Origin: Methanotorris igneus Kol 5
Lineage (GTDB): Archaea > AGJL01 > Methanococci > Methanococcales > Methanococcaceae
DNA: 64,000 nucleotides
NCBI RefSeq assembly: GCF_000214415.1
Contig: NC_015562.1
Span: forward strand, 372,001-436,000
Reading direction: 5' to 3'
Shown: positions 8,809 to 44,123 of the stretch, one piece after another
Layout: every line of letters begins with the position of its first letter
Numbering within the stretch: position 1 is the first letter of the stretch
The notes under the pieces: model-generated
Seen by the model: only the letters and a program-made list of their open reading frames with translations
Database searches by the model: none
Told to the model about the DNA's origin: nothing
Program-made: the position numbers and the translations under genes

Positions 8809-9160
8809 CTACAATCTTCAATGAAATTATAAAGGCATAATTTATTTTGAAATTTTGCATAATAATTTTATGTTCTTTCAAAAATTTGTCGTGGTTGAAT
8901 ATAGTCGTGTGCGGAATAGTTGAATAACCGTAGGTTATTCAACTTCCCTGCAACCGAAGGTTGCAGTGGATTTTTAAACTATACATAACATTAATGAATT
9001 TTTAAATAACTCTTATTCTTCCTTAAAATATACGGCAAAACCTTTTAGGTTTTGCCAAAAAATTAAAATAATACACTTAATCTTAAAAAATTTGCCAAAA
9101 AGTATATTTCAATTTTTAATGCACACGACTATAATGCAAAGAATTCCGCAAACGACTATA
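8785..9160. repeat. A-family TIR element containing a nested B element
   Basis: TATAGTCGTTTGCG (8785-8798) and its inverted partner CGCAAACGACTATA (9147-9160) bound a 376-base element with no coding capacity. A complete B-family element (8900-9133) sits inside it. The A-specific part (8799-8899) resembles, inverted, sequence at 61842-61910. The left end overlaps the last codons of the HD gene; the right end lies 17 bases from the cfbE-like stop. Confidence 0.85.
8900..9133. repeat. B-family TIR element nested in A
   Basis: TATAGTCGTGTGCG (8900-8913) pairs with GCACACGACTATA (9121-9133). It holds three palindromic units: 8919-8943 (GTTGAATAACC arms), 8948-8966 (CTGCAACC/GGTTGCAG) and 9034-9056 (GGCAAAACC/GGTTTTGCC). 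The first two reappear as one composite inside the radical SAM gene at 42986-43034. Confidence 0.85.
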
Positions 9161-42542: not shown

Positions 42543-42559
42543 TATAAAGTGTGGTGGTT

Positions 42560-43750
42560 ATGGAACTTCCAAAGGGTTGTCAATACTGCATTAGAGGAGA
42601 GAAGTTAGTTTTATTTGTTACTGGTTTGTGTAATCAAAACTGCTACTACTGCCCACTATCTGAAAAAAGAAAGGGTAAAGACGTGATTTATGCCAATGAA
42701 AGACAAATAACATCTATTGAAGAGGCTATAGAGGAGGCATACCTTTGTAGTAGTAAGGGTGTGGGGATAACTGGAGGAAACCCACTCCTAAGGATAAATA
42801 GGACGTGTGAATACTTGAAAGCATTAAAGAACGAGTTTGGGGAAAAATTCCATGCCCATCTCTATACAACTCCCGACTTAATAGATAGAGAGAAATTAGA
42901 AAAATTGCAAGATGCTGGATTAGATGAAATTAGGCTACATCCAACAAAAATATTCAACGAAATCGGAGCGAAGCAGAAAGCTGCATCCACTGCAACCGAA
43001 GGTTGCAGGGAAGTTGAATATGAATATTCAACTAAATCCGAAGGATTTTGTTCAAATGCTGATGAGAAATATTACAACCTCCTATTGGATAAGTTAAAAC
43101 TCTGCATGGAATATATAGAAGATGTTGGAGTTGAAATCCCATCTATTCCAAACATGGAAAAGGAAATCTTAAATCTTGCATATAAGTTGGATGAAATAGG
43201 AGTTAAGTTTTTAAACATTAATGAGTTGGAGTTTTCGGAAACCACTTATGAAACCTTAATCGCAAAAGGGTTTGAGGTTAAGGATGATATATCTTCAGCT
43301 ATTAAGGGTAGTGAAGAAACTGCCCTATATGTGTCTGAAAACTTTAAAGGAAACATGATAATTAATTACTGTCCATCTTCATTAAAGGACAACATCCAGT
43401 TGAGGAATAGACTCATAAACAGGGCAAAAAACGTGGCAAAAGATTATGAGGTTATAACAGATGAGGGTTTGTTGCTTAGGGGAATTATGATATTTGATAA
43501 TGAAGAAGATTTGGAAGAGATAGCAGAGATTTTAAGAGATAATGAAGTTGAATTTGAAATTGTTGAAAATAAAATCTATCTAAATCCGTTTGTATTGGAG
43601 GATTTAATAGAGGAGATGAAAAGGGCAAGATATGAAATTAAATTCAGTGCATATATCTCCGAGGTGTATCCAACAGCTGATGCATTGGAAGTTGAGAGAA
43701 TACCATTAGTTACTAAAAAGTTGAGGTTTAGAAGGAGAAGAAAATTATAG
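42560..43750 (+). CDS. Radical SAM protein with in-frame palindromic insert
   Basis: A 396-residue protein with the radical SAM motif CNQNCYYC (Cys24, 28, 31), an additional N-terminal CQYC pair (7, 10), and GITGGNP for SAM binding. The C-terminal half is specific to this methanogen family and ends in an Arg/Lys-rich tail. Residues about 135-164 are encoded by a stack of palindromes shared with intergenic elements and look like an insertion between LHPTKIFNE and NADEKYYNLLLDK. ATG follows GTGGTGGTT. The stop codon TAG is part of the terminus of the D element. Substrate unknown. Confidence 0.85.
   Translation: MELPKGCQYCIRGEKLVLFVTGLCNQNCYYCPLSEKRKGKDVIYANERQITSIEEAIEEAYLCSSKGVGITGGNPLLRINRTCEYLKALKNEFGEKFHAHLYTTPDLIDREKLEKLQDAGLDEIRLHPTKIFNEIGAKQKAASTATEGCREVEYEYSTKSEGFCSNADEKYYNLLLDKLKLCMEYIEDVGVEIPSIPNMEKEILNLAYKLDEIGVKFLNINELEFSETTYETLIAKGFEVKDDISSAIKGSEETALYVSENFKGNMIINYCPSSLKDNIQLRNRLINRAKNVAKDYEVITDEGLLLRGIMIFDNEEDLEEIAEILRDNEVEFEIVENKIYLNPFVLEDLIEEMKRARYEIKFSAYISEVYPTADALEVERIPLVTKKLRFRRRRKL
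42962..43051 (+). repeat. Palindromic composite inside the radical SAM gene
   Basis: About 90 bases (30 codons) containing three hairpins: CTGCAACC/GGTTGCAG (42990-43008), GTTGAATA/TATTCAAC (43013-43032) and AAATCC/GGATTT (43034-43048), preceded by a GCGAAGCAG...CTGC unit. 42986-43034 matches the complement of 8917-8970 in the B element, differing mainly in the hairpin loops. The frame is kept without stops. Confidence 0.8.
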
Positions 43751-44123
43751 TCAGTGACAAAACTTTCTGAATTGAATAAGGAAGATTAGACTACCTTCCT
43801 AATGGAAGGCAGTCGTTTTTATAGCCGTTCTACAATTAAATAAAATCACTCCGTGATTTTATAGCATTTCGAGTGAAACGAGAAAATTTAAAACCTCTGG
43901 TTTTAAATCTTCGCTTCGCTCCGATTAAACGAAAATCTTCGGTTTTCGTAGCTCTTCGCTCTTTCGGAGCTCCGATTTAATAACATCTAACATAACTCTA
44001 ATTTAAATTGGAGTTTTGTTAAATTTGCTTAAAAATTGAAATTTTAAGATTATGGACAGTACACTATATTCCGTAGAACGGCTATACCTTGTATCATTTT
44101 AATACCTTTTGTCACTGACTGTA
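43746..44123. repeat. D-family TIR element containing a nested C element
   Basis: TATAGTCAGTGACAAAA (43746-43762) and TTTTGTCACTGACTGTA (44107-44123) bound 378 bases. Inside lies a full C element (43820-44086). The short D copy at 40076-40129 shows the element without it. The left end provides the radical SAM stop codon. Confidence 0.85.
43820..44086. repeat. C-family TIR element with palindromic cluster, nested in D
   Basis: TATAGCCGTTCTAC (43820-43833) and CGTAGAACGGCTATA (44072-44086) bound 267 bases. Compared with the 126-base copy at 42054-42179, it carries about 140 extra bases near the left end (43838-43980) made of at least five hairpins: AAAATCAC/GTGATTTT, TTTCG/CGAAA-type, TTAAAACC/GGTTTTAA, CGAAAA/TTTTCG and AGCTC/GAGCT. 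Confidence 0.85.

Follow-up and report, generated by a model that had tools for sequence, protein, structure and literature searches.

A radical SAM gene of Methanotorris igneus Kol 5 carries a mobile palindromic element inserted in frame

The insertion in the radical SAM gene of Methanotorris igneus Kol 5 described here is real: a mobile palindromic element entered the gene recently and in frame. The gene lies in a 64-kb stretch (G000:C1:372001-436000; the window, in which all positions below are counted unless a contig is given) of the 1,854,197-base genome. It has an intact frame and matches in 49 of the 61 genomes searched. The element is very probably non-autonomous, and was very probably kept in this conserved gene because it neither shifts the frame nor brings in a stop. 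The original prediction, made from the sequence alone, placed stacked palindromes at 42962-43051 (30 codons). The palindromes are in the gene as described; the bounds were corrected to 42963-43055 (93 nt, 31 codons) because of the empty site in homologues and the ends shared by the family (Table 1).

Table 1. Features of the radical SAM gene, its insert and related elements in the window
Feature	Position	Strand	Remarks
Host gene, radical SAM protein (Pfam PF04055 and Fer4_12)	42560..43750	+	ATG at 42560; GTG at 42551 also possible
Inserted palindromic element, long form, 93 nt	42963..43055	-	Gap in all other homologues; family ends
Second hairpin of the unit, 17 nt, TTTCTGC-ttc-GCTCCGA on the minus strand	42963..42979	-	Partly decayed compared with 45-nt units
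Hairpin A, CTGCAACC-gaa-GGTTGCAG	42990..43008		TCC/GGA on either side lengthen the stem around a bulged A
Hairpin B, AGTTGAATAT-ga-ATATTCAACT	43012..43033		Non-coding form has TAA in the frame of the host gene
First hairpin of the unit, AAATCC-gaa-GGATTT, and end TGTTCAA (TTGAACA on the minus strand)	43034..43055	-	
Intergenic copy of hairpins B and A ("B element")	8917..8970	+	Orientation opposite to the in-gene insert
Non-coding unit TTAA...CTCCGA, 50 nt	43925..43974	+	In array just downstream of the host gene
MITE-like sequence, 14-bp terminal inverted repeats TATAGCCGTTCTAC	43820..44086		Contains the array at 43925..43974

On the minus strand the element starts with TTGAACAAAATCC and ends with GCTCCGA, which are both ends of a 45-nt unit. 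It is composed of 17+3+7+19+3+22+22 nt, with hairpins A and B internal. The fold z-score is -6.7 as DNA and -6.2 as RNA, and none of 200 shuffled sequences was equally stable. Among 93-nt segments taken every 31 nt across the 64 kb, the insert has the most bases in perfect stems. The proposed complementarity of a 49-base part (42986-43034) to the intergenic copy is borne out, with 43 of 54 columns identical to the reverse complement of 8917-8970 and one 5-nt gap; the mismatches lie in the loop of hairpin A and at the middle of hairpin B. A possible 5-nt target duplication, TTCAA (42953-42957 and 43051-43055), was considered and rejected: with it the insertion would be 98 nt long and no longer in frame with the homologues.

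Against the closest relative (G001), the protein aligns over residues 1-134 and 167-394, with a single codon separating the two segments, each of which has 96% identity. This is the clean gap that an ortholog alignment was predicted to give. A segment homologous to the insert was sought and is absent from G001 and from 36 other homologue sequences, an alignment of 37 in which two pairs are the same genomes via different collections, so that the independent number is slightly lower. Several of the 36 have a short loop of their own near the site, unrelated to the insert. When the flanks outside 42963-43055 are joined they read ...KIFNENADEKYY... (NENADEKYY), which fits ...KIFNEGANTEYY... in the relative. 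From these comparisons of sequence, the element is an insertion, one that very probably postdates the split from the nearest sequenced relative.

The insert belongs to a family of hairpins that is multicopy in this genome. A genome search with the insert region gave about 40 further places with the same hairpin orientation and order, nearly all intergenic, and 27 non-coding copies of the A-B core were recovered in the home genome. The hairpin AAAATCCnnnGGATTTT occurs in 35 places there and in others in 12 further genomes; a reversed control pattern gave 0. This hairpin and the unit-end pattern were not found in any of the seven genomes of genus g4 among G001-G036, and other genera of the order carry them. 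The arms vary in a matched way between copies (ACAAAATCC/GGATTTTGT, ACAAATTCC/GGAATTTGT, ACAAAACTC/GAGTTTTGT and ACGAAATGC/GCATTTCGT); therefore, the palindrome itself is what the family keeps. The best intergenic relatives in the home genome have about 80% identity to the insert over 80-90 nt, and a copy in G023 has 84% over 76 nt with the hairpin order common to both. The insert thus differs by about 20% from the intergenic copies closest to it in the home genome, among which a donor was not found.

Nested MITE-like sequences lie just downstream of the radical SAM gene (43746-44123). The outer inverted repeats TATAGTCAGTGACAAAA (43746-43775 and 44094-44123) surround the inner TATAGCCGTTCTAC (43820-43833 and 44073-44086).

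The 45-nt unit was defined by setting in-gene copies against homologues that lack them. It consists of a tetranucleotide (TTGA, TTAA, TCAG or variants), a 21-nt hairpin, a 3-nt linker (AGC, AAC or variants) and a 17-nt second hairpin. The insertions in BioF, L095, the acylphosphatase, DUF447, CobN and GmhB are exact, and the joined flanks are those of the empty homologues. In DNA, with [45] for the unit, L095 reads CCAACTA[45]AAACAATAACT against CCAACTAAAACTATAACT in L182, L120 reads GGAA[45]AAGTTCAAC against GGAAAAGTTCAGC in L177, L086 reads ATGAATA[45]GAGCAATTT against ATGAATAAAGCAATTT in L169, and L220 reads GATTTAA[45]TAGAAGAAGAT against GATTTAATAGAAGAAGAT in L232. None of the exact empty sites has a target site duplication, and the empty sites compared have no strict target sequence or fixed target tetranucleotide.

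The home genome also has filled and empty copies of one gene. L207 (G000:C1:981742-982188) is an IS1595-type transposase gene (PF12760) with exactly TTAAACAAAAACCTTCGGTTTTTGTAGCTCTACGCTTCGCTCCGA (45 nt) extra, and the transposase copies L260 and L262 (C1:625040 and C1:770301) are without it; within the compared flanks, about 70 nt on each side, there is no other difference. The unit starts TTAA in the phase TGT TAA and so interrupts the L207 copy, while the near-identical copies are intact. The 45-nt length therefore exists also where the frame is not kept open. This pair of states is direct evidence that the 45-nt unit is mobile. In a strict set, every one of the 8 in-gene units whose frame is intact measures 45 nt, compared to 5 of 14 non-coding ones (Fisher about 0.004, by hand), a difference that is partly built in because the in-gene copies were found by an open-frame search.

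It is unlikely that the insert was instead copied from an intergenic array by ectopic recombination or replication template switching. Hairpins favor such switching, target duplication is not seen, and no enzyme was identified with a presence that matches the spread of the element. However, copying of this kind would be expected to leave ragged ends and partial copies, whereas the same ends occur at many unrelated sites, the in-gene units are fixed in size and the empty sites are exact. For transposition of a defined unit, several candidate movers were considered. Neither of two element-rich genomes, the home genome and G003 (the one with the most coding insertions found), has the IS200/IS605 TnpA family (PF01797), and TnpA was rejected on this ground. 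Serine recombinases (PF00239) are present in the home genome and absent from G003, so an IS607-type enzyme was also rejected. The search for these two families in the two genomes did not identify a moving enzyme. Viral carriers were set aside since two exact patterns had no match in viral contigs.

Clean 15-codon in-frame insertions of such units occur in ten further genes from five genomes, a lower bound since only stretches around the element and gene matches were sampled. The home genome has 15-residue insertions in DUF447 and a carbamoyltransferase, both absent from G001. In G003 they occur in HemC, BioF, CobN, YgiQ and an acylphosphatase-like protein, which has the insertion in G015 as well. 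G001 has one in an ATPase, and G027 has one in L095 and one at the start of a HAD phosphatase. Protein alignments give the corresponding 15-residue gaps for HemC, YgiQ, CmcH and others. The units in genes lie in both orientations and five reading frames, so it is DNA that spreads and not a protein motif. Together with the radical SAM gene, these are in-frame insertions in unrelated conserved genes that are absent from homologues.

At the BioF site, L233, L234 and L220 carry 17, 19 and 15 extra residues in three genomes (the 17 and 19 in G032 and G029), and several relatives are without an insert. This pattern may reflect repeated insertion, transfer, or an old insertion followed by losses. The N-terminal stretch of the HAD phosphatase orthologue L167 (G023) is shorter and looks like a unit that has lost a part (NIRQNQNSVSKAIF). 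In L082, L106 and L128 a hairpin array of this family extends over the C-terminal codons of TnpB; these units stand outside the insertion count, which covers sites compared with an empty version. Three candidates stand outside the homologue-checked set: a glycosyltransferase (G009), an ATPase (G030) and an intein in a helicase gene of G028, which we take to be Methanocaldococcus jannaschii (L272, L270 and L213). In the last, the unit lies in frame within the intein (L213:1501-1545, G028:C1:1064380), a selfish element inside a selfish element.

The original prediction had offered two ways in which the palindromes could persist in a gene, as tolerated protein loops or as variants selected to be stop-free, and both find support. 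In the frame of the host gene, 26 of the 27 non-coding A-B cores in the home genome would bring in a stop (GAA TAA). At this place the coding copy has GAA TAT, and the opposite arm is changed too; therefore the hairpin is kept in the coding copy. Three intact copies lie in a frame where TTGA or TTAA would give a stop, and their tetranucleotide is TCAG, TAGA or TTAT. The stop-free variants are thus those in intact genes, and the insert holds no stop, as predicted. An AlphaFold2 model from nine sequences has a mean pLDDT of 84; the value drops below 50 for residues 140-164, which are part of the insert (135-165), and exceeds 90 in the strand before and the helix after the insert. The insert is thus modeled as a low-confidence loop in an otherwise confident fold. 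This fits a predicted disordered loop and suggests that hairpin units may be tolerated in this form.

The same data bear on two further explanations. If the host gene were a decaying pseudogene, the insertion would be uninformative on tolerance in a working protein. Decay is very unlikely: the reading frame runs unbroken from end to end, both flanks have 96% identity to the relative, and the fold is predicted with confidence except at the insert. It is even less probable that the insert is spliced out of the transcript at its hairpins, like an archaeal intron, so that the protein never has it. The RNA would be highly structured; however, splicing would not require the homologue-checked in-gene copies to keep the frame and be stop-free, as they do, and a unit copy with TAA interrupts its gene. 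The chance that the palindromic DNA merely codes for an ancestral protein loop is negligible, as support was sought and none found, neither the 96%-identical relative nor any of the 36 other homologue sequences has the segment, and the same DNA recurs in intergenic regions.

The course of events under the mobile-element explanation may be outlined as follows. A palindromic element would have entered the radical SAM gene after the split from the nearest sequenced relative, and would have been retained since it caused no frame shift and carried no stop. The extra 31 residues would form a disordered loop, as predicted by the model. The element probably moved as DNA, perhaps (this is a guess) in a single-stranded hairpin form, and an enzyme acting in trans may have moved it. 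Retention would reflect neutral tolerance rather than a gain of function. A broader proposal is made tentatively: the 45-nt two-hairpin unit could be a mobile DNA element of very small size, which inserts via an unrecognized enzyme or a single-strand route, leaves no target duplication and has repeatedly added 15-codon loops to core enzymes across thermophilic Methanococcales.

The statement that no archaeal counterpart had been described does not hold. Papers that cite Suyama, Lathe & Bork (2005; FEBS Lett 579:5281) credit it with finding, in Methanocaldococcus jannaschii, a member of the same order, palindromic repeats that are fused into genes for proteins (PMC2229807, PMC2996958), so the likeness is known through the citing papers. 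The original article may already cover the 45-nt unit in its exact form, the absence of target duplication and an empty site within one genome. The present unit has copies in G028, which fits M. jannaschii, and one of these is inside the intein. The earlier study reportedly had three such elements within coding regions.

The proposed likeness to Rickettsia palindromic elements (RPE; Ogata et al. 2000, 2002) is sound as regards behavior. Both are repeated palindromic DNA that lies between genes and also, in frame, within unrelated metabolic genes. RPE are bacterial and about 105-150 nt long (PMC2229807, PMC10969869). In contrast, the unit here is archaeal, 45 nt long (93 nt in the long form), and lies in several frames and both orientations.

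Movement of DNA without target duplication also recalls IS200/IS605, REP and serine-recombinase systems. REP/REPIN and IS200/IS605-type non-autonomous elements are short hairpins with a recurring flanking tetranucleotide that insert without target duplication. The unit resembles them in its short hairpins, flanking TTGA/TTAA and lack of target duplication, but differs in that no Y1 transposase is present in G000 and G003 and its empty sites have no fixed target tetranucleotide. Archaeal MITEs are likewise non-autonomous and multicopy, and the arrays here are often inside terminal inverted repeats such as TATAGTCGTTCTACAA and TATAGCCGTTCTAC; however, the in-gene unit has no such terminal repeats and no target duplication.

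Selfish palindromes inserted in proteins have mostly been described in Rickettsia and Wolbachia, and once in an archaeon. Here they occur throughout much of an order, and the data include exact empty sites, a defined unit, and filled and empty copies in one genome. The evidence for the unit, its ends and its mobility is unusually clear. How such units move, and how the enzymes of hyperthermophiles gain loops, thereby become directly testable.
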